Shown here in pieces: positions 18,056 through 60,830 of a stretch of 64,000 bases of DNA. The notes under the pieces are model-generated. The model saw nothing but the letters and a program-made list of their open reading frames with translations, was not told the origin of the DNA and made no database searches. The stretch is from NCBI GenBank assembly GCA_029222685.1, contig JARHVB010000085.1:186001-250000 (forward strand). The letters run 5' to 3'. The position numbers and the translations under genes are program-made. This DNA comes from Terripilifer ovatus. GTDB lineage: Bacteria > Pseudomonadota > Alphaproteobacteria > Rhizobiales > Beijerinckiaceae. Every line of letters begins with the position of its first letter. Position 1 is the first letter of the stretch.

Positions 18056-19000
18056 TTATGGCCAAAGAACCTGGCGAACCGCCTCGGGCCACTGCGCCGT
18101 CTCGCAGCCGTGGTGCTTGAACAGCGCCAGCGCCACCCGCTCCATGCCGAAGCCGACGCAGGCGGTATGAGCGACGCCGCCATCGGCTGTCGGGATGTTC
18201 CACAGCGATCCGAAGTGATCCTGATGGTAGTTGAACGACAGGCAGGCCGTCGGCTTTTCCTCGCTGGTGACGGGGATCAGCAGTTCGAATTTCAGCCCGG
18301 TGTCGCGCTGGTTGTTGGCCAGCATGCGGCCGGCGCGGCCGAAGAACGGGTCGTTGGCGACATCGACCTTCAGCGGCACGCCGAGCGATGCCATCATCGT
18401 CTGCCCGCGCTCCAGCCATGTTTCGCGGAAGGCACGAACCTGCTCCGGCGAGCCGATGCGGACATATTCGCGCATGCGGAACATCTGCATGCGCGCCGGA
18501 TCCTTCGAGGGCTCATGGCGGAAGCAATAGGATTGCAGGTCGTAGAGCCGGCCTTCGGGCGGCAGCGGGCCGCGCTTGGCGACGGTCGGATAGAGCGGAT
18601 AGCAGGCGGCCGGCGTCAGCACGATGTCGGTTGCCTGCTGCTGGCCGGTCCAGTCCTGGCCTGCTTCGAGTTCGGCGAGCAGGGTACAATGGTCGGCATC
18701 GCCGCCCATGAAGCTGTGCACGGTGCCGGCGAGCTGCGGAAAGCTCTTCATATAGCCGCTCTTCTCGAACAGCGGCCGCGCGATGCCCGGCGGAAAATGG
18801 ATCGACGTGGCGGCGTCGTGCTTGCCGTGGCGCGTCACCAACCGGTCGAATGCCTTGATGACATCCTCGAAGGCGCCGGAGCGGCCATAGAGTCCGTCGA
18901 CACCGCTGTCGAACAGGACCCCCTTGTCGAACAGTTCGTTGAGAAACTCCTCCTGGGCGGAGAGCCCGGTGGGCGCATCGGCACGGGTGTGAATATTCAC
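18056..19000 (-). CDS. Amino acid:[carrier protein] ligase (class II aaRS-like, Bll0957 type)
   Basis: A 314-residue homologue of the catalytic domain of atypical seryl-tRNA synthetase, lacking a tRNA-binding domain. This family (Bradyrhizobium Bll0957, Agrobacterium Atu2573) is known to activate small amino acids with ATP and load them on the phosphopantetheine of a small carrier protein instead of tRNA. Class II motif 2 is [20 protein letters not shown] and motif 3 [12 protein letters not shown]. Cys133, Glu178 and Cys281 occupy the positions of the family's zinc ligands. The GTG at 18998-19000 is chosen because AGGAG lies 8 bp before it; another GTG three codons earlier is possible. The partner carrier protein is encoded 70-80 bp upstream. 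Which amino acid it uses (Gly or Ala likely) and its cellular role are unknown. Confidence 0.92.
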
Positions 19001-19079
19001 GACGGGCACTCCTCAGACGCGGCATTTTCAAGCGAAGTGGAGACCGGTTCGCGTGAAGAAAATGCTCTCTGTTAAACGT

Positions 19080-19325
19080 TTAGGCAGCGGCGCGGGTCAG
19101 TTCGGTGACGGCTGTTTCGATCGAGCGGATGGTGGCGAAAGTGCGCCGGTTGAGCATGCGCTCGGGGAATTCGATGTCGAAGGCGTCTTCCAGCGCCAGC
19201 ATCAACTGCACCGAAGCAAACGAAGTGAGGCCGGCTTCATGCAGGTCGGCGTCGTCGGCGAGCGTGCTCGCGGGGACCGGCAGCTTGGCGGCTTGATCGA
19301 GAATGGCGCGGATACGGTCGGTCAT
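19080..19325 (-). CDS. Acyl carrier protein, dedicated partner of the aminoacyl ligase
   Basis: An 81-residue carrier protein with the four-helix ACP pattern. The phosphopantetheine-accepting serine is Ser35 in LHEAGLTSFASVQLMLALED, a variant of the usual DSL motif with LTS. It is placed directly before the amino acid:[carrier protein] ligase, as in Bradyrhizobium where the ligase charges its neighbouring carrier. It is therefore expected to carry a glycyl or alanyl thioester rather than a fatty acid. The ATG at 19323-19325 has an AGGA site; a longer in-frame reading upstream was rejected. Confidence 0.9.
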   Translation of the reverse strand: MTDRIRAILDQAAKLPVPASTLADDADLHEAGLTSFASVQLMLALEDAFDIEFPERMLNRRTFATIRSIETAVTELTRAAA

Positions 19326-19534
19326 CGGCGGGTCCTGAATATGCGTGGTGAAGGTCACGACATAATAAGAGCTCAGGCCCTGCAAAAAATATGAACAATT
19401 TGAAGATTTAACGCGGATCATTCTTCTCGGTTTACAGACCGTTTAACGAACCTCGGGAATTTGCGTTAATGGCCCGGGCGGAGCGGCCGATGCCAGGGCC
19501 GGTCGCGAAAAAGCCAAGTCCATGGAGATGAAGC

Positions 19535-19918
19535 CTAATAGCAGACGAAGCCGTTGCCGGCCGCCCGCGTGGCGCCGTTCATCGATTCCAGCGTCATGCG
19601 GATGTCGCCGGTGAGTCGGTCGAGATCGGCTTGCGGCAGGACCGCATCGTCAAGCCCGCCGAGCCAGTCGGCGAAGTCGCGCCTGCGGGTCGATGTCTCA
19701 CTTGCCTCGAGACGGTCCTCGACAAAGGCAGCCAGGGCGTCGCGGCCGTCCTGGCGGTAGCGGTGGCGGAGGAATTCCAGGAGATCCTGCTCGACCGCAC
19801 CGGGATCGAGCGGGACATGGAAGCCGCCCGCGCACGAGCAGCCGGCGAGATGCGGCGCGAAGATCATCGCCCCGCTCCACAGCCGCGAAAGCTCCTGTCC
19901 GACAGTCTCGGATTCCAA
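19535..19918 (-). CDS. Small hypothetical protein upstream of the aminoacyl carrier protein
   Basis: I do not recognise this reading of up to 127 residues. It begins at TTG (complement of 19916-19918); an ATG at 19865-19867 (MIFAPHLAGCSCAGGF) is an alternative giving 110 residues. It contains a conspicuous GCSCAGGFHVPLD segment near residues 26-38, a charged helical middle rich in Arg, Asp and Glu, and ends in GNGFVCY. It lies 209 bp upstream of the carrier protein gene on the same strand and could belong to the aminoacyl-carrier system, perhaps as an acceptor or accessory. That role is only inferred from position. Codon bias looks like its neighbours. Confidence 0.5.
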   Translation of the reverse strand: MESETVGQELSRLWSGAMIFAPHLAGCSCAGGFHVPLDPGAVEQDLLEFLRHRYRQDGRDALAAFVEDRLEASETSTRRRDFADWLGGLDDAVLPQADLDRLTGDIRMTLESMNGATRAAGNGFVCY

Positions 19919-47674: not shown

Positions 47675-49471
47675 TTATTCGGCTGCCAGCGCCATGGCAG
47701 GCTGATTTTTCGGCGGCTGCTGCGTCTCAGCATTTTTGACGCAGTCGAGAATGAAATCGTGCAGCAGCGGTACGAGCAGCGCGCGATCTTCGGCGGATGT
47801 GAAATTGTGGTCGAGCGCAGCCACCTGGGCAAATTTGAAGCTTGGATAAGTGATGTGCGAGCCATTGCGTCCAAGCTGCATTTTCATTTCGTCGATGCCG
47901 CCGTCGCCCAGCGAATAGGCCATGAGCACGCGCAAGCCGCGCCGGCGGAAGTCCGCGAACGTGTCGAGAATGAAACGATGCTCCTTGTCGCCGACTTCGG
48001 CGGCGGCATTGAAGGCCCGCAGGAACCGCGTGCGGACGACGCGAAGGATCCGTTCGCAGATGGTCCGCAGGATGCCGCGCGTGTCCACATCGCCCTTGAG
48101 CAGCCGCAGCCAGATGGCGGGCTGACGCAGCATCGACAGATAATAATTCACCGAGGAATAGACGATCAGCCGCGCACTCGCATCCCAGACGAATTTCTGC
48201 AGGTTGATCATCGCCACTGCCGTGAGCCGCGGTTCGATCGCCGCCGCCTGGAAGGCGAGATAGGCGCCGCTGCAGATGCCCGACAGGGCGGGATTGCGGA
48301 TGCCCTGCGTCTCCAGCCAGTCGACCGCCGCCGTCACATCGGCGCGCGAGTCAGCAACATAGAAGACACGCGTGGGACGATCTACCAGATCCGGCGTTTC
48401 GCCGATGCCGCTCGTATCGATGCGCAAGGTCGAAATGCCCAGCGACGCAAGACGTCTCGCGATCTCGACGGTCTGTCGGCCCCAGCCGACATGCGGATTT
48501 GCGCCGGTGTTGAGAAGGATGAGAACCGGCGCCGCCGCTAGCATCTGTTTCGCCCGGCACAAGATTCCGAAGACCTGATTGCCCGTACCGAATTGCGCCG
48601 CGGTCTCGATGAAGGCGTCGCCTTCGAGGCGGGCTGTTTCGGGGCGCTTGCTGCTGCTGCTGCCGGCCGGTGGCGCTGTGCCGATCCAGTCGGCCACCTG
48701 GGTGAGATCGGCACGCGGCGGATCGGCGCTCGACGGATCGGTGAGAAGCGAATTGAAGCCGAGGAAATCCTGCAAGCTTACGCGGGCGCCGGCCGTGCGC
48801 CATTGCTGGCCTAGATCCTCCGCGGCAAGCTGACCGGATGGCGCAAGGATCATGATATCCATTGCCGGCGGCGGCAGGCTTTTCAGATCCATGCGGTTCA
48901 GAGCATCGAACGACATCTGGCTCAGGCGAAATCCATCGAATTCAAGTGGCGCAATGCTCGCCTCTGTCGTGCCATCGGGCCTGTTTTCGGGTCTGGCGAG
49001 GGAAGCGGTCGATGCGTCCTTGGCTTTGGCGATCCGATAGAGCGACCGCATTTCACGGACATAACGTTTGCCCGATACGATCGGCGCCATCAGCACCACA
49101 CGCTGGGCACCGGCCTCCTTGCCGACGAAAGCTGCGATCGAAGCGCCCAACCGTAAACCGACGAGGATCACATTCTTGACGCCGCTCGTGGCTTTCAGCC
49201 AGTCGATGGCGGCGAGCGCGGACTTGCACCGGCTGTCGATCGCATCGAGCGTCGCCTCATCGCCAAGCGAGTCGCCCGTGCCGGGAAAATCGAAACGCAA
49301 GGTGGGAAATCCACGCGAGGCGCAATCCTCTGCCAGCAGACGCATGCTCTTATGGCAAGCCAATGCCTCGACGCCGAATGGCGCAAGCAATACGATTCCC
49401 GTATCGCCTGCGGCTTCGTGATACATGCCGAAACAAGGGCCGAACGTCACCGCTTGCAAAGAAGGCTCCAT
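47675..49471 (-). CDS. Tandem alpha/beta hydrolase (two hydrolase domains, no serine elbows)
   Basis: A 598-residue protein made of two alpha/beta hydrolase-like domains, about residues 1-265 and 290-585, joined by a Ser/Pro-rich linker. The first resembles exosortase-associated hydrolases (RFDFPGTGDSLGD, then GLRLGAS), and its elbow has Arg107 where Ser is expected. The second has TLRIDTSGIGETPD and the elbow SGICSGAY, with Cys400 in the nucleophile place as in dienelactone hydrolase; a possible His is in ALDHNFTS. No signal peptide. It is divergent from the dehydrogenase-like/DUF1839/GH2 operon across 315 bp and probably shares its pathway. Function unknown; thioesterase or acyltransferase activity is possible. 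Confidence 0.8.
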   Translation of the reverse strand: MEPSLQAVTFGPCFGMYHEAAGDTGIVLLAPFGVEALACHKSMRLLAEDCASRGFPTLRFDFPGTGDSLGDEATLDAIDSRCKSALAAIDWLKATSGVKNVILVGLRLGASIAAFVGKEAGAQRVVLMAPIVSGKRYVREMRSLYRIAKAKDASTASLARPENRPDGTTEASIAPLEFDGFRLSQMSFDALNRMDLKSLPPPAMDIMILAPSGQLAAEDLGQQWRTAGARVSLQDFLGFNSLLTDPSSADPPRADLTQVADWIGTAPPAGSSSSKRPETARLEGDAFIETAAQFGTGNQVFGILCRAKQMLAAAPVLILLNTGANPHVGWGRQTVEIARRLASLGISTLRIDTSGIGETPDLVDRPTRVFYVADSRADVTAAVDWLETQGIRNPALSGICSGAYLAFQAAAIEPRLTAVAMINLQKFVWDASARLIVYSSVNYYLSMLRQPAIWLRLLKGDVDTRGILRTICERILRVVRTRFLRAFNAAAEVGDKEHRFILDTFADFRRRGLRVLMAYSLGDGGIDEMKMQLGRNGSHITYPSFKFAQVAALDHNFTSAEDRALLVPLLHDFILDCVKNAETQQPPKNQPAMALAAE

Positions 49472-49786
49472 CGCCGGGATGCTCCACCCGAACGATAGAC
49501 TGATAGCCGATCCGTACTTCCATGGTGGTAAAACACCCGGCGATTTGATGCGAATGCATAATGAATCGTAAACCGGTTTGAACGGATATGATTAACGCGC
49601 TCAGACGACGGCTTGCCCGCGCTGACCATTCTGAACGAAAGACGACGCAGGACAGTCACTTACGATACCGGCGCGAATTCGAAACGACGGTCCGGTCGCG
49701 TCACCCGTGTGGCGATCCGCTTAAGCCTTTCTACAGGCCGGACAAGTATACCGGGGCCAGTGAGTTCGAGCAGCGGGGCCGGGGGT
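49472..49786. promoter_or_regulatory. Divergent intergenic region
   Basis: These 315 bp lie between the divergent starts at 49471 and 49787 and should carry both promoters. I find no convincing gene. A perfect 10-bp palindrome aaaccggttt at 49570-49579 within an AT-richer stretch is the most noticeable element and could be a regulator site. A gggggt stretch directly before 49787 serves as the ribosome site. Confidence 0.3.
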
Positions 49787-50986
49787 ATGGGCATTGCGAT
49801 CAAGACGGCGGATCAGAAAGCCGCGGCGGCAGTTGCGTTCCGGCAGCGCGCCGAAGCCGTCGCCATTGTGGCAAAGCAATATGCGGGCGAGGTCGACCGG
49901 GATGCCCGGTTTCCTCATGAAGCCTTGCAGGCGTTGAAAGAAGCGCGCCTTCTCGGCATGCAGGTCGCTGTCGACCTGGGCGGCGACGGCGCCGGCTTGT
50001 CGGATATCGCCGAGGTCTGCACCATGCTGGGCCAGGATTGCGCCTCCACCGCGATGATTTTCGCCATGCATCAGATCAAGACCTCGAGCCTGGTCTCCCA
50101 TGGGTGCGACAGCAAGTGGCATCGCGGCTTCATGCAGGCGATCTGCGAGCAGCAATTGCTGCTGGCGTCGGCCACGACGGAAGGCGGCGTCGGCGGTGAC
50201 ATGCGCAGCAGCATCTGCGCGATCGAGCCCGAAGGCGATATGTTCCGGCTGCACAAGGAAGCCAATGTCATTTCCTATGGATCCGTCGCCGATGCCATTC
50301 TGATCACCGCCCGCCGCAATGCCGAAGCCTCGAGTTCCGATCAGGTGATGGCCGTGGTGCTGAAAGGTCAGTACAACCTACAAAAGAAGCTTGCCTGGGA
50401 TACGCTGGGCATGCGTGGCACCTGTTCCGAAGGCTTCAAGTTCGATTCACTGGCGCCGCGCGAACAGATTCTCGACAAGCCCTTCGCCGAGATCGCCGGA
50501 CAATCCATGCTGGCGACCGCGCACATCCTGTGGGGCAGCGTCTGGTTCGGCATTGCGTCCGATGCGATCGCTCGCGCCCGCATGTATATTCGCAACGAGG
50601 CACGCAAGAACCCGGGCACGATCCCCAACGGCGCGGTCCGCCTGACCCAGGCCGTCGCCAGCCTGCAGCGCATGAAAGCCGATATCCTCGATGGCCTTCG
50701 GCGGTTCGAGACGGCGAAGGAAAACGACGAAGAGCTCTCTTCCGTTTCCTTTGCCATCGCCATGAACAACCTCAAGGTGAACTGTTCGACCGCGGCTGCC
50801 GATATCGTGCGCGAAGCCATGCTGGTCACGGGCATCAACGGCTACCGTAACGACAGTCCCTACAGCGTCTCCCGCCATATGCGCGATGCCATGTCGGCGG
50901 CCTTGATGGTCAACAACGACCGGATCGTCGGCAATGTTTCCAAACTGATGTTGATCGGGCGCAACGAAACCAGTCTTTTCAACTGA
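49787..50986 (+). CDS. Acyl-CoA dehydrogenase-like flavoprotein (probable acyl- or aminoacyl-carrier oxidase)
   Basis: A 399-residue member of the acyl-CoA dehydrogenase superfamily. The N-terminal helical domain has FPHEALQALKEARLLGMQVAVDLGGDGAGLSDIAEVC, the beta domain LLASATTEGGVGGDMR, and the C-terminal domain RHMRDAMSAALMVNNDRIVGN. Where typical dehydrogenases have YEGTNEI with the catalytic Glu, this has MVNNDRI, so the usual base is missing; flavin monooxygenases and some carrier-protein-linked oxidases of the superfamily share this. The ATG at 49787 (MGIAIKTADQ) is chosen over a long noisy extension. It is 11 bp from the DUF1839 gene and lies in the same operon. Substrate unknown. Confidence 0.85.
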   Translation: MGIAIKTADQKAAAAVAFRQRAEAVAIVAKQYAGEVDRDARFPHEALQALKEARLLGMQVAVDLGGDGAGLSDIAEVCTMLGQDCASTAMIFAMHQIKTSSLVSHGCDSKWHRGFMQAICEQQLLLASATTEGGVGGDMRSSICAIEPEGDMFRLHKEANVISYGSVADAILITARRNAEASSSDQVMAVVLKGQYNLQKKLAWDTLGMRGTCSEGFKFDSLAPREQILDKPFAEIAGQSMLATAHILWGSVWFGIASDAIARARMYIRNEARKNPGTIPNGAVRLTQAVASLQRMKADILDGLRRFETAKENDEELSSVSFAIAMNNLKVNCSTAAADIVREAMLVTGINGYRNDSPYSVSRHMRDAMSAALMVNNDRIVGNVSKLMLIGRNETSLFN

Positions 50987-50997
50987 AAGAGCCTGTC

Positions 50998-51990
50998 ATG
51001 CCGGTGATCCTGCCTCATCTCGATGCGAAGACCTACGTGCCGCATGCCCTGCATGCCAGCGACCGCAACTGGATCGAGACGAATTGCTACGTCGATCTCT
51101 GGATCGAACTGCTGGCCTCGCTCGGCATGGCGCCTGAAGCCATGCTCGGTTTCACCGTCACACAGGATTTCGAAGGCGATCAATTCACCTTTTTCAAGCC
51201 GTCGACGGATACGCTGCAATCGCTATACGGCGTCGAAACGTCCGAACTGGCGATGTTCGATAACTGCGAGCGTCATTTCGTGACGCAGGCCGCGCGGGGA
51301 CGTTTCGTGCTCGTCGAGGTCGACGGCTATTTCCTGCCCGATACGCGCGGCGTTACCTATCGGAGCGGCCATAGCAAGACGACCATCTGCATCAACGAGA
51401 TCGATCCTGCCGCACGGCGGCTCTCGTATTTCCACAATGCGACTTACGCCACCCTCGACGGCGACGATTACGATGGCATCGTCAACGCCGGCGGGAAGAC
51501 TCATGACGGCCTTGAGACCCTGCTGCCCTATACCGAATTCGTCAAAGTGCCGGCGAAGCGAAAGCCGCTTGACGTGGAGGCGGCTGTCAACCGGCTTGCG
51601 ATGGAGATGTCGCGGCGGCCGCAAACCAATCCGCTGCGTGAGTTCAAGCTGATCTTCCCGGCGCATGTGGAGGATCTGCTGCAGCGGCCGGAAGCCTATT
51701 TCCATACCTATGCCTTCAACACGCTGCGCCAATGCGGCGCCAATTTCGAGTTGCTGGCAAGCCACCTGAACTGGCTGGGCGAGGCGGCCCGGATCGATCT
51801 GTCGGCGCCGGCCCTCTCGGCGCAGGTGATATCGGAAGGCATGAAGGCGTTGCAATTCAAATTGGCCCGCGCTTTGGCGCGTCGTCGTCCAGACGGCCTG
51901 AGCGACTTTCTCGAGCCGCTCGCCGATCATTACGATCAGGCGATGAGCTCCCTCGACAGCAAGATCGCGCCGCGCTCCATGGCCGCCTGA
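50998..51990 (+). CDS. DUF1839 family protein, BtrH-like putative acyltransferase
   Basis: A 330-residue protein of a family without assigned function. The N-terminal half has WIETNCYVDLWIELL with Cys30, and RFVLVEVDGYFLPDTRGVTYRSGHSKTTICINEID with Asp109 and His125. This arrangement (NC-x-x-D/L helix, then VDxYYLP...H...GYD) resembles the BtrH N-terminal family, papain-like enzymes that transfer an aminoacyl group from a carrier protein to an amine in butirosin synthesis. The C-terminal half is helical. No signal peptide. It sits between the dehydrogenase-like gene and the GH2 gene. The acyltransferase role is inferred from pattern similarity seen by eye and is unproven. Confidence 0.82.
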   Translation: MPVILPHLDAKTYVPHALHASDRNWIETNCYVDLWIELLASLGMAPEAMLGFTVTQDFEGDQFTFFKPSTDTLQSLYGVETSELAMFDNCERHFVTQAARGRFVLVEVDGYFLPDTRGVTYRSGHSKTTICINEIDPAARRLSYFHNATYATLDGDDYDGIVNAGGKTHDGLETLLPYTEFVKVPAKRKPLDVEAAVNRLAMEMSRRPQTNPLREFKLIFPAHVEDLLQRPEAYFHTYAFNTLRQCGANFELLASHLNWLGEAARIDLSAPALSAQVISEGMKALQFKLARALARRRPDGLSDFLEPLADHYDQAMSSLDSKIAPRSMAA

Positions 51991-52003
51991 GCGGATAGAA
52001 TCC

Positions 52004-54469
52004 ATGTTCCTGCCGACCAGCCGGGCGCAAGACGATATCGAACTCGTTGCGGGATGGGATATGGCGCTCGCTGCGGCGGGACAGTTTGCCGATGCCGCGC
52101 AGGCGCAGCAACATGCCGGCTGGAAACCCGCAGGGCATCTGGCGCCGGCTGAAGCCATCTTCCGACGCGGCGGATTCGCTTTGCCGGCCGCCGCCAAAAA
52201 TCTTCACGATTGCGATGTCTGGTATCGCTTGCGGCTCGACCAGCGCGGCGATTTCATCCTTGCGTTCGAGGGACTGGCGACCATCACCGACGTCTGGCTC
52301 GACGATCGCCTGGTCCTGCAAAGCAACAGCATGTTCGCAAGGCATCATGTCCGGGTTACGCTTCACGGCGGTGAAACGCTGGTGCTTGCCTTCAGGAGCC
52401 TGGGCAAACGTCTCGCCGAGGTCACCGGCAAGCGCGCACGCTGGCGCGTGCCGATGATCGTTGAACAGACTCTTCGTTTCCTGCGCACCACATTGCTCGG
52501 CCATATGCCCGGATGGTGTCCGGATGTCGCCATCGTCGGGCCCTGGCGGCCGATCCGGCTGATCGCGGCATCCCGTCCGGAATTGCGCGATCTCCGCATC
52601 GAGGCGCGGCTCGACGGCGGAACGGGGAATCTCTCCGCGGGCTTCACGGCCGGCGCGAACATCATGCGCGGCCAGCCGATCCGCCTGCGCTGTGGCGGGC
52701 AGGCCGTGACCGGTGAATGGCGCGATGATCAATGGTCGGCGCAGATCGCGATCGCGGACGTCGAGCCCTGGTGGCCGCATAGCCATGGCGAACCGCATCT
52801 CTATGCGGTGGATGTCGAGCTGGACGGCGCATGGTATTCGCTGGGAAAGACCGGCTTCCGATCGCTGGTGATCGAGCGCGGCAAGGATGGCGCCGATTTC
52901 GCATTCGTCGTCAACGGCGAACGCGTGTTCGCGCGCGGCGTCTGCTGGTCGCCGCCTGACATCGTCGCGTTTCCGTCGAGCCGCGACGTCTACGAACGCG
53001 AATTGCGGCTGGCGAGAGACGCCGGCATCAACCTGATCCGCGTTTGCGGCACAACCGTCTATGAGCCGCAGGTCTTCCACGATCTCGCCGACGAACTCGG
53101 CATCATGATCTGGCAGGATCTGATGCTGGCGAATTTCGATTATCCGGTTGGTGATCCCATATTTCGCCAGACGCTGTTGAACGAGACGAAAGAGTTTCTG
53201 GCCCAGCGCCAGGGCTCGCCATCTCTGGTGGTGCTGTGCGGCGGCAGCGAAATCAGCCAGCAGGCGGCGATGATGGGTCTGCCGTCTTCCCTGTGGAGCA
53301 ACAGCTTCCTTGATGAAGATGTTCCGGCCTTGCTGCACGCATTGCGACCGGATGTCGCCTATGTCGTCAACTCGCCCTGCGACGGCGACCTGCCGTTTGT
53401 CGCCGACTATGGCGTCGGCCATTATTACGGCGTCGGCGCGTATCGCCGGCCGTTGGAGGACGCGCGCCGCGCCGATGTCGCATTTGCCGCCGAATGCCTG
53501 GCGTTTTCCAACATGCCGTCGCGACAGGCGCTCGCGGCGATGCAACTCGACGAAGCAACGCCGCTTGATATCTGGAAGACGTACGTGCCGCGCGACCGTG
53601 GCGCCTCGTGGGATTTCGAGGATATCCGCCACCACTACATGCACGAACTTTATGGCGTCGACCCGGAGGCGCTGAAGCGGCAGGACTTCTCCCGTTATGT
53701 CGGCTTCGCCCAGGCGGCGACCGCCGAAGTGATGGAGGCCGTCTTTGCCGAATGGCGGCGTCCGCGCGGCCGCACAGCCGGGGGCGTCGTGCTGATGTGG
53801 AAGGATCTGGCGCCTTCGCTGGGCTGGGGCGTCGTCGATCATGCGGGCGAACCGAAGGCAGCCTATTATGCACTGAAGCGTGCCTTTCGCCCGGTGCAGT
53901 TGCTGGCAAGCGACGAGGGCGTCAACGGCTTGCAGGCCCATGTGCTCAACGAGCGCGCAAGGACCTTGCGCGCGATCCTGTCGCTTGAATGTTTGCGGGA
54001 CGGCCATGTGCGCGTGGCGCAAGGCGCGCAGGAGATCGAAGTCTCGGGACGGTCGACACTGGCCGTTTCGGCGACGGCTCTGCTCGGCGGATTCTTCGAC
54101 ACGACCTATGCCTACCGCTTCGGTCCTCCTGCTCATGACGCGAACGTTCTTCGCCTCACCGATCGCGATAGCGGCGACCTCTTGGTCGAAGCCGTGCATT
54201 TCCCCTCCGGACGCGGACAGGAGCGTCATGACGCGGGTTTGGAAGCTGCCGCCGAACGGCAGGGAGATCAATTCTGGCTTGTTGTCAGCTGCAAGCGCCT
54301 GGCGCAGGCCGTGACGATCGAGGATCGCGCCTTCCAGCCGGGCGACAATTACTTTCACCTCGCGCCCGGAGCGCCGCGGCGCATTTTGTTGAGTCGGATG
54401 CCCGGATATACGGGCGATCCCGGCGGCATCGTCTCGGCGCTGAATGCTTCAGGCAGGGTTAAATATTGA
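52004..54469 (+). CDS. Glycoside hydrolase family 2 protein, beta-mannosidase-like
   Basis: An 821-residue GH2 enzyme with the beta-mannosidase layout: jelly-roll domain (about 20-190, with WKPAGHLAPAEAIF and FEGLATITDVWLDD), an immunoglobulin-like domain (190-290) and a TIM barrel (290-650, starting FVVNGERVFARGVCWSPPD). The acid/base is expected at Glu416 in LVVLCGGSEIS; the Asn normally before it is Ser here. The nucleophile is expected at Glu497 in FAAECLAFSNMPS. There is no signal peptide, so it is cytoplasmic. It starts 13 bp after the DUF1839 gene. Its sugar substrate is unknown; it might process a glycosylated product of the neighbouring genes. Confidence 0.87.
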   Translation: MFLPTSRAQDDIELVAGWDMALAAAGQFADAAQAQQHAGWKPAGHLAPAEAIFRRGGFALPAAAKNLHDCDVWYRLRLDQRGDFILAFEGLATITDVWLDDRLVLQSNSMFARHHVRVTLHGGETLVLAFRSLGKRLAEVTGKRARWRVPMIVEQTLRFLRTTLLGHMPGWCPDVAIVGPWRPIRLIAASRPELRDLRIEARLDGGTGNLSAGFTAGANIMRGQPIRLRCGGQAVTGEWRDDQWSAQIAIADVEPWWPHSHGEPHLYAVDVELDGAWYSLGKTGFRSLVIERGKDGADFAFVVNGERVFARGVCWSPPDIVAFPSSRDVYERELRLARDAGINLIRVCGTTVYEPQVFHDLADELGIMIWQDLMLANFDYPVGDPIFRQTLLNETKEFLAQRQGSPSLVVLCGGSEISQQAAMMGLPSSLWSNSFLDEDVPALLHALRPDVAYVVNSPCDGDLPFVADYGVGHYYGVGAYRRPLEDARRADVAFAAECLAFSNMPSRQALAAMQLDEATPLDIWKTYVPRDRGASWDFEDIRHHYMHELYGVDPEALKRQDFSRYVGFAQAATAEVMEAVFAEWRRPRGRTAGGVVLMWKDLAPSLGWGVVDHAGEPKAAYYALKRAFRPVQLLASDEGVNGLQAHVLNERARTLRAILSLECLRDGHVRVAQGAQEIEVSGRSTLAVSATALLGGFFDTTYAYRFGPPAHDANVLRLTDRDSGDLLVEAVHFPSGRGQERHDAGLEAAAERQGDQFWLVVSCKRLAQAVTIEDRAFQPGDNYFHLAPGAPRRILLSRMPGYTGDPGGIVSALNASGRVKY

Positions 54470-59297: not shown

Positions 59298-60608
59298 TCA
59301 GGCCGCTTGGGCGAACAGGCCACAGGTATCGAGAACCTTCTGGTTGCCGCGCAGGGTCAGCACCTTGAACGCCTTGTGCGCCACCAGGGCGACGACCATG
59401 TCGGCATTGGCCGCCGCTTCGAGATCGTTGGTGACGGCGAAGCCCGGCTGCTTCTTGCCCGCAAGCAGGGCCGAGGCGAAGGGATCGATGGCGATCATCT
59501 TGCTGCCGAGCTTCGCGTGCAGGGCTTCGGCGATCTCATAGGCCGGGCTCTCACGGAAGTCGTCGACGTCGGCCTTGTAGCTCAGACCGAGGCAGGCGAC
59601 GGTTCCGCCGGTCCTGGCATGCTCAGTCAGGATTTGCTCGAGCACATAATGCGCCTTGGCATCGTTGACCTGGCGGGCCGTGCGGATCAGCGGCGCGCGT
59701 TCTGGCATGCTCTCCCACAGGAACCATGGATCGACGGGAATGCAATGGCCGCCGACGCCAGGACCGGGCGTCAGGATGTTGACTCTCGGATGGCAGTTGG
59801 CCAGCTCGATGACTTCCTTGGTGTCGACGCCAAGACCGGCGAACAGCATGGAGAGTTCGTTGGCGAAGGCGATGTTGACGTCACGGAAGGAATTCTCCGT
59901 CAGCTTCACCGCCTCGGCGACGCGCGCCGAGGTGATGTGGATCTTGCCGTTGACGAACGAGCGATAGAGCGCGGCGGCCTTTTCGGCGCAGCGCGGCGTC
60001 ATGCCGCCGATGACGCGGTCGTTCTCGACCAGTTCGGTGATCATGCGACCGGGGATGACGCGCTCCGGGCAATAGGCGACAGCGACATCGGACGTGTCAC
60101 CCTTCTGGTGCGGGAAGGTCAGATCGTTGCGGCGCTTGGCGAGCACTTCCGAGACGCGATCGCAGGTGCCGATCGGCGACGTCGATTCGACGATCACCAG
60201 GTCGCCGGACTTCAGGTGCGGGGCAATGCTCTCGGCAGCCTTGAGCACGAAGGAAAGATCGCAGACCTTGTTGCCTTCGCCATCGGGAACGGCGGGCGTC
60301 GGCACGCAGATCATGAAAATGTCGGCGGCCGCAACCTCGGTCGAGGCCGAGAGATGGCCTTCCTCAACCGCGTTGTTGACGAGGGCCTCAAGACCGAGTT
60401 CGTGGAAATGGCACTTGCCGGCGTTGATGGTGGCGACCGTGTTGCGGTTGATGTCGACGCCGCGCACATTGAAGCCGCGGGAAGCGGCGAGCGTGGCGGT
60501 CGGCAGGCCGATATAGCCGAGGCCGATGATGCAGACGTTCTGGAACCAGGCCTTCCGAGCATAGGTGAAAGGAACGAAATCATGGAGGGATTGCTTCTGG
60601 AAATTCAT
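59298..60608 (-). CDS. Nucleotide-sugar dehydrogenase (UDP-ManNAc/UDP-Glc dehydrogenase family, WecC-like)
   Basis: A 436-residue NAD-dependent four-electron dehydrogenase that oxidises a UDP-sugar to the uronic acid, most like UDP-N-acetyl-D-mannosamine dehydrogenases. The Rossmann motif is NVCIIGLGYIGLPTATLAASRGFNV (about 24-48), ESTSPIGTCDRV follows, and the catalytic Cys is in GPGVGGHCIPVDPWFL (about residue 278). The C-terminal domain has LGLSYKADVDDFRESPAYEI. The ATG at 60606-60608 (MNFQKQSLHDFVPF) is chosen; upstream codons run into non-coding sequence. It is a single gene, so the polysaccharide it serves is not evident. Confidence 0.92.
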   Translation of the reverse strand: MNFQKQSLHDFVPFTYARKAWFQNVCIIGLGYIGLPTATLAASRGFNVRGVDINRNTVATINAGKCHFHELGLEALVNNAVEEGHLSASTEVAAADIFMICVPTPAVPDGEGNKVCDLSFVLKAAESIAPHLKSGDLVIVESTSPIGTCDRVSEVLAKRRNDLTFPHQKGDTSDVAVAYCPERVIPGRMITELVENDRVIGGMTPRCAEKAAALYRSFVNGKIHITSARVAEAVKLTENSFRDVNIAFANELSMLFAGLGVDTKEVIELANCHPRVNILTPGPGVGGHCIPVDPWFLWESMPERAPLIRTARQVNDAKAHYVLEQILTEHARTGGTVACLGLSYKADVDDFRESPAYEIAEALHAKLGSKMIAIDPFASALLAGKKQPGFAVTNDLEAAANADMVVALVAHKAFKVLTLRGNQKVLDTCGLFAQAA

Positions 60609-60830
60609 GGTGGCCTCGGTGTCTGATCCGCCAGCCGCAGCGGACTTCGACAACCCCATTTGCACAGGCCATTCCAAAAATAATCGGCGAATTTTTCTTA
60701 ATTTGAAGCAAGATTACACGGTCATGAGGCGATTCCTCGAAACCCGCTGGTACGTTTTAACACATCGAAAATCCCGTTTTGGGACTTGTGCCAGAGCAGG
60801 AAGATTCATCGCGCCGGGGATGCCTCCGGA

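Follow-up and report, generated by a model that had tools for sequence, protein, structure and literature searches.

Six genes of Terripilifer ovatus, encoding a carrier protein, a flavoprotein, an amino acid--[acyl-carrier-protein] ligase (aa:CP ligase), a DUF1839 protein, a GH2 glycosidase and a double alpha/beta hydrolase, belong to a conserved cassette whose members are jointly present across genomes, share one history and encode proteins with recognizable folds and conserved residues. In the window, by which we mean the entire stretch of 64,000 nucleotides that was analyzed, the cassette is divided between two blocks that lie 28.3 kb apart at the nearest (Table 1). We consider it probable that the six genes constitute a single pathway, split in this lineage, and that its steps follow the order proposed below, in which a small amino acid loaded on the carrier would probably be joined to an amine, most likely that of a sugar. 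A preliminary description of this DNA had placed the ligase and carrier, some 30 kb away, in one pathway with the block at 47675-54469, and this assignment is strongly supported by co-occurrence in 18 genomes, by gene order and by agreeing trees. The four genes of that block have open, intact and coding-like frames, and each falls in the family that had been named for it.

Table 1. Features of the two blocks and related genes (positions in the window unless a locus is named)
Feature	Position	Strand	Remarks
Amino acid--[acyl-carrier-protein] ligase (aa:CP ligase), SerRS-like and lacking a tRNA-binding domain	18056..19009	-	PRK07080.1
Carrier protein, phosphopantetheine Ser	19080..19325	-	81 aa from likely internal start; open frame to 19421
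127-aa Cys-containing protein adjoining carrier	19535..19918	-	four related genomes; no Pfam or NCBIfam match
Double alpha/beta hydrolase	47675..49471	-	one gene; N half hydr2-like, C half hydr1-like with Cys nucleophile
Spacer separating the divergently oriented hydrolase and flavoprotein genes	49472..49786		likely both promoters, judged from gene layout alone
Flavoprotein of acyl-CoA-dehydrogenase fold, both usual catalytic Glu absent	49787..50986	+	399 aa from likely start
DUF1839, predicted papain-like carrier-dependent condensing enzyme	50998..51990	+	PF08893; Cys30, Thr128/Thr129, His146
GH2 beta-mannosidase-like glycosidase	52004..54469	+	PF22666 and PF17753 above cut-off; 5n6u/2je8 relatives
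UDP-N-acetyl-D-mannosamine dehydrogenase	59298-60677	-	507 bits, cut-off 459; 4.8 kb from GH2
DUF1839 genes of the two-copy genomes	L173:13908-14960 and 18735-19718; L168:10435-11421; L169:127-1050

Joint presence across genomes

Four of the genes were searched genome-wide, and the flavoprotein and carrier were judged within loci. Of 150 sampled genomes from the order Rhizobiales, 18 contained DUF1839, the window's genome included; the double hydrolase (at E 1e-30), the close subfamily of the ligase (at least 60% identity) and the close subfamily of the GH2 glycosidase (at least 41% identity) were each likewise present in 18 of the 150, and the four lists name the identical 18 genomes. The two identity cut-offs were chosen after wide gaps had become visible, the next ligase standing at 50% and the GH2 proteins of genomes without DUF1839 at no more than 28%. 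Beyond the 18, the ligase search returned 12 further genomes of the order (eight at 46-50% identity and four weak) and the GH2 search 16 further genomes at 23-28% identity, from which it follows that the ligase family extends beyond the cassette; in this sample it occurs without DUF1839 in 12 of 30 ligase genomes. Among the sampled members of families f1, f16 and f28, all four genes are present or absent jointly.

Samples of the class and of the phylum contain DUF1839 in 2 of 240 and 12 of 299 genomes, and the three samples combined yield 27 distinct DUF1839 genomes, all of which carry the ligase (27/27). The two genes adjoin in 26 of these, the exception being the window's own genome. The grouping is far beyond chance. 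The statement in the preliminary description that these families occur together in Rhizobiales holds for the same 18 genomes, and genomes with DUF1839 but without the ligase, which it had named as evidence against a shared pathway, are absent from the order, class and phylum samples.

Gene order and history of the split

At the 17 other loci of the order, the genes for carrier, flavoprotein, ligase, DUF1839 and GH2 lie on one strand in a fixed order (17/17); the hydrolase gene is inside the fetched locus in 13 of the 17 and elsewhere in the genome for the other four. Among the best 80 of 524 relatives, which make up the named loci, the five-gene order is present in 77, the ligase stands beside DUF1839 in 79 (the exception being L069) and the hydrolase lies within the locus in 58, genes having been called by a codon-model script. 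One locus (L109) has no GH2 gene within the 11.3 kb covered, and another (L131) no carrier or flavoprotein gene within the 6.5 kb covered. According to the plasmid records, all six genes stand in a row on megaplasmids of Azospirillum and of the betaproteobacterium Mycetohabitans; in one record the GH2 gene is missing from the gene table and was recovered by tblastn.

The split seen in the window recurs in a close relative (L069/G150). In L069, the block from hydrolase through flavoprotein and DUF1839 to GH2 has the same neighbors as in the window, and its contig also encodes, at a distance of about 30 kb, a ligase 87-88% identical to the window's. Two other relatives, L091 and L070, carry an intact cassette next to the gene for the 127-aa protein and a HyuA homologue, and these same two genes also flank the ligase and carrier genes of the window. 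Trees unite the window with L069, L091 and L070 for the ligase (99/97), the flavoprotein (100/99) and GH2 (99/98), and the DUF1839 tree contains the same grouping, weakly (83/90, not starred). On the strength of the L091 and L070 neighborhoods and the four agreeing trees, the cassette was most likely once intact at the place of the ligase and was broken in an ancestor of the window and L069, duplication with complementary loss being a possible alternative. Independent histories of the two loci, the other outcome that the preliminary description had said would count against it, are thus not what is seen, the trees of both halves agreeing on the window's relatives.

The identity figures did hint at different origins for the two halves. 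Between the window and L069, the DUF1839 proteins are 62% identical, the lowest of 276 dependent pairs (ligase 85-91%), and the flavoproteins 69%, with 6 of the 276 pairs as low or lower; the GH2 value of 60% is not unusual, since 50 of the 276 pairs are as low or lower. The agreement of the four trees led us to reject separate origins, and makes one history with faster change in the relocated half the simpler account. A genome of another order (G335) has carrier, flavoprotein, ligase and DUF1839 genes on one contig and the GH2 and hydrolase genes side by side on another, a split that is independent of the one shared by the window and L069. Retention of the scattered genes argues for one function.

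The 127-aa protein, in which the motif GCSCAG and a Cys near the C terminus stand out, has its gene in four genomes among the loci examined (the window, G150, L091 and L070) and matched no Pfam or NCBIfam model; it is lineage-specific and probably outside the pathway.

Ligase, carrier and flavoprotein

Residues were counted in 98 sets from which sequences with a stop or a missing stretch had been dropped (n = 92 for DUF1839, 97 for the flavoprotein, 96 for GH2, 96 for the ligase, 94 for the carrier and 64 for the hydrolase), and the counts are not independent, because at least four order loci among the 17 duplicate one of the named loci (L049/L110, L055/L146, L059/L092 and L060/L113). The ligase scores 503 bits against the NCBIfam equivalog model PRK07080.1, well over its cut-off of 357, and 334 bits against PDB 4h2w and 318 against 3mey/Bll0957. 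Its residues C136, E181 and C284, which we take to be the zinc ligands (Cys, Glu, Cys) of the SerRS-like core, line up with 4h2w and are conserved (E181 and C284 in 96/96, C136 in 95/96 with one gap). The carrier scores 110 bits against PRK07081.1 (cut-off 72) and 39.8 bits against PF00550, and its Ser67, in the numbering of the 113-aa frame, is kept in 94/94. Neither adenylation nor condensation domains of the NRPS type were found among the Pfam matches of the six cassette proteins, all of which look cytoplasmic by eye.

The open frame of the flavoprotein begins at 49613, and the start at 49787 is the likely one since 17 gene-called relatives are 387-410 aa long. Its acyl-CoA dehydrogenase superfamily fold is recognized both by Pfam (PF02771 and PF00441 above cut-off, PF02770 below) and by the top Foldseek matches, among which acyl-CoA dehydrogenases, KijD3 and the monooxygenases DszC/TdsC are matched about equally by the model. 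At the position that we take to be that of the MCAD catalytic glutamate, 96 sequences have Ile or Val and one has a gap; at the presumed IVD position, all 97 have Ala or Ser. With both usual glutamates absent, ordinary acyl-CoA desaturation appears doubtful, to judge by the alignment. Three residues beyond the MCAD place there is a conserved acid (Asp in 85, Glu in 11, one gap), which by virtue of that closeness could still act, in substitution for the lost glutamate. Also conserved are His95 (96/97), His246 (97/97) and an N-D/E-R motif (96, one gap), in the 399-aa numbering. The likeness to prolyl-carrier-protein dehydrogenases drawn in the preliminary description has to be given up, as the protein reaches 37.8 bits against the NF045652 cut-off of 650 and both catalytic glutamates are missing.

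The DUF1839 protein

The DUF1839 protein scores 381.8 bits against PF08893 (cut-off 22.5). No relatives of solved structure were found by sequence, and an AlphaFold2 model (pLDDT 89.2, pTM 0.89) was compared with the PDB using Foldseek. At E <=0.001 there were 19 matches, all to chains from AziU2-U3 (3), CtaG (8) and CcbD (8), at TM 0.44-0.67 and at identities of 10-14%, which make the kinship a distant one. CtaG and AziU2-U3 are the best of them (E 4e-8 to 7e-7, 10-14% identity), CcbD being matched at E 8e-5 to 8e-4 and 11-13% identity, and phytochelatin synthases are found among the weaker matches (E 0.04 and above). Cys30, Thr128, Thr129 and His146 are kept in 92/92 aligned sequences. The fold matches and the invariant Cys30 sustain the earlier proposal of a likeness to BtrH, and so to the papain-like acyl-transfer group.

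A passage in PMC10318531 assigns DUF1839 to the papain-like group and gives its triad as C-(T/S)-H, in which His and Thr/Ser are swapped, and guesses at glycan-related work from genome context. Set against the canonical Cys-His-acid order, the swap described in that passage puts Thr/Ser at the His place, and in our alignment Thr128/Thr129 and His146 are invariant. The variants named in CtaG entry titles (C11A, H128A and D144N) suggest an active site of Cys, His and Asp in that enzyme; judged by spacing, the Thr and His of DUF1839 would stand where the His and Asp of the CtaG type are expected.

In Cupriavidus metallidurans (L173) and in G611 (L168), the DUF1839 copy of the operon lacks both Cys30 and the KTT motif, which were lost jointly. 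These two are the only operon copies in which the catalytic Cys is missing, and each genome keeps an intact copy, which in L173 lies nearby, with Cys30 and KTT, and in G611 is found on another contig (L169) together with the hydrolase. Joint loss accompanied by an intact second copy is what would be expected if the Cys and Thr cooperate and the activity is needed somewhere in the genome, and the two copies may represent an enzyme and pseudoenzyme pair.

Glycosidase and double hydrolase

In the GH2 protein, which by eye has no signal peptide, E416 and E497 are present in 95/96 sequences, with one gap; from the fold family, we take them to be the catalytic pair. The cysteine elbow that had been described for a tandem hydrolase is confirmed in the C-terminal half (GICSG, with the Cys in 64/64), and the tandem proves to be one minus-strand gene with two halves. 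At the matching place of the N-terminal half the 64 sequences have Arg (17), Gly (45) or Ser (2), and with Arg or Gly there this half is mostly without a nucleophile.

The two halves match the exosortase A-associated hydrolase models TIGR03100 and TIGR03101 at 102.6 and 106.3 bits, below the cut-offs of 168.45 and 202.75; the other six double hydrolases that were scanned are all likewise fused and below both cut-offs. Fusion as a specialty of the window is ruled out, the homologues that were called or scanned being fused alike. The Rhizobium double hydrolase has an additional N-terminal stretch of about 500 aa, giving lengths of 1,103 aa in NLR16a (L171:16874-20185, computed from the coordinates) and 1,108 aa in L049. 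The window's genome also encodes, on contig C2, a second, stand-alone double hydrolase (L177:8311-10041, minus strand) that is 32% identical to the first and, as judged by eye, adjoins general metabolic genes.

A proposed pathway and its alternatives

In the order of steps that we favor, the ligase would first activate Gly or Ala with ATP and transfer it to the phosphopantetheine thiol of the carrier; members of the aa:CP ligase family load Gly or Ala on a neighboring carrier according to PMC5370406. The flavoprotein may then oxidize the carrier-bound aminoacyl group, probably in a reaction other than ordinary acyl-CoA desaturation, after which the acyl group would pass to Cys30 of DUF1839 and from there to an amine, for which an amino sugar is the most likely bearer, to give an amide. 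The GH2 glycosidase and the Cys hydrolase would act on glycan or acyl intermediates, whether to trim, to proofread or to release them.

The closest precedent for the third step is CcbD, which, as summarized in PMC12945683, works by a ping-pong mechanism in which a Cys accepts carrier-tethered proline and hands it on to the amine of a thiooctose; the proposed role of DUF1839 is alike in that an amino acid held on a carrier would be attached, by way of a catalytic Cys, to an amino sugar. The triad given for CcbD is Cys-His-Glu, whereas that published for DUF1839 is C-(T/S)-H. Activation in the lincosamide synthetase, to which CcbD/LmbD belongs, is ascribed in a passage of PMC4351081 to the NRPS adenylation domain LmbC, whereas in the cassette it would fall to a ligase derived from an aminoacyl-tRNA synthetase. 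More tentatively, and with less confidence than we place in the single pathway itself, we envisage a complete new route to modified glycoconjugates, possibly the native role of one branch of the aa:CP ligases, in which a flavoenzyme lacking the usual base makes an unusual acyl group (for example N-oxidized or alpha-oxidized) from the ligase-loaded Gly or Ala, a rearranged papain-like enzyme forms the amino-sugar amide, and the dedicated glycosidase and Cys hydrolase complete or proofread the product.

The surroundings of the cassette bear on whether such a product would decorate a surface polysaccharide or, as in mycothiol or lincosamides, be a small diffusible aminoacyl glycoside. Among 138 genes flanking 17 cassettes of the order, the glycosyltransferase group 1 model is matched 17 times, the flippase model (Polysacc_synt) 6 times, the O-antigen ligase model 5 times and the bacterial sugar transferase model 4 times. 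In 144 genes from 16 control regions on the same contigs, about 50 to 500 kb off (G137 supplied none), no such surface-sugar family appears among the 25 families listed of 235, so that single matches may be hidden. These flanking genes speak against a diffusible metabolite, as does the lack of an exporter or resistance gene in the cassette, and we regard that reading as somewhat unlikely, even with three points in its favor: the nearest characterized condensing enzymes yield small molecules, the six proteins look cytoplasmic by eye, and no glycosyltransferase or flippase cluster is annotated around the six-gene cassettes of the Azospirillum and Mycetohabitans megaplasmids in the PLSDB tables, which are incomplete. 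The megaplasmid cassettes do indicate that a surface-polysaccharide setting is not constant.

In the window itself, the neighbors of the hydrolase-to-GH2 block are unrelated genes, apart from one for a UDP-N-acetyl-D-mannosamine dehydrogenase, the only gene nearby that was recognized as a surface-sugar gene and possibly the source of the acceptor sugar. L069 has a similar gene at the same place, as judged from the start of its sequence. In Rhizobium sp. NLR16a (L171:6558-9384), efp, epmA and a lysine-2,3-aminomutase-like gene precede the cassette, the three being another modification system derived from a synthetase.

It is less likely still that DUF1839 acts on the carrier protein as a thioesterase or proofreading hydrolase, or transfers the acyl group to a protein or lipid amine, with the sugar amide formed elsewhere or never. 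Papain-like Cys enzymes can hydrolyze as well as transfer, the order of the triad is unusual and phytochelatin synthases do appear among the weaker fold matches; however, all 19 significant matches are natural-product enzymes, of which CcbD forms amides in a carrier-dependent manner, and the cassette already contains a separate Cys hydrolase. Independence of the window's two loci, with the ligase and carrier serving another process and the block a chance gathering, we consider very improbable, for the 28 kb between them and the faster divergence of the relocated half (DUF1839 62% and flavoprotein 69% against ligase 87%, compared with L069) are outweighed by the phylogenetic profile, the gene order, the L091 and L070 synteny, the agreeing trees and the integrity of both halves in two diverged genomes.

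Relation to earlier work

Two ligases of the same family as that of the window, Bll0957 of Bradyrhizobium and Atu2573, which we take to be the aa:CP ligase of Agrobacterium, were reportedly characterized as aa:CP ligases by Mocibob et al. in 2010 and 2013. Ligases of the Bll0957 type are about 50% identical to the window's. At three such loci (L066, L067 and L068) the ligase gene adjoins one for the same kind of flavoprotein, the ligases being 46-48% and the flavoproteins 41-44% identical to those of the window, a carrier match is present in two of the three, and no DUF1839, GH2 or hydrolase gene was found in the loci fetched; by eye, the ligase-only loci have no obvious common replacement for DUF1839.

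The pathway had been called undescribed, which is only partly so. A note in proof of 2010 (PMC2922099) predicted an StRS-based aminoacyl-sugar pathway that forms an amide on a surface amino sugar, from the same association of ligase, carrier, redox enzyme, Atu2574, glycosidase and liposaccharide genes; the locus numbers Atu2573 and Atu2574, the latter from that note, fit the adjacency of ligase and DUF1839. The redox enzyme is called Rossmann-fold in that passage, whereas we find an acyl-CoA-dehydrogenase fold, and the passage does not include the double hydrolase, the Pfam family, co-occurrence counts, splits or a structural match. What is new relative to the 2010 prediction is the sixth gene, the identical co-occurrence, the structural support, the two independent splits and the degenerate DUF1839 copy with its intact partner. 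No experimental test of the predicted pathway was found in the literature searched, a scope that took in few subscription papers.

Implications

If the proposed pathway is correct, a carrier-loading aa:CP ligase of hitherto unknown purpose would acquire a role that can be tested. An aminoacyl-tRNA-synthetase descendant would then take the place of an NRPS adenylation domain in the joining of amino acids to sugars, and DUF1839, a papain-like family on which the literature searched yielded one paper, would gain its first role. Given a defined set of six genes that includes a carrier and a condensing enzyme known by name, and given only a few likely acceptors, the question of what these ligases do becomes directly testable.
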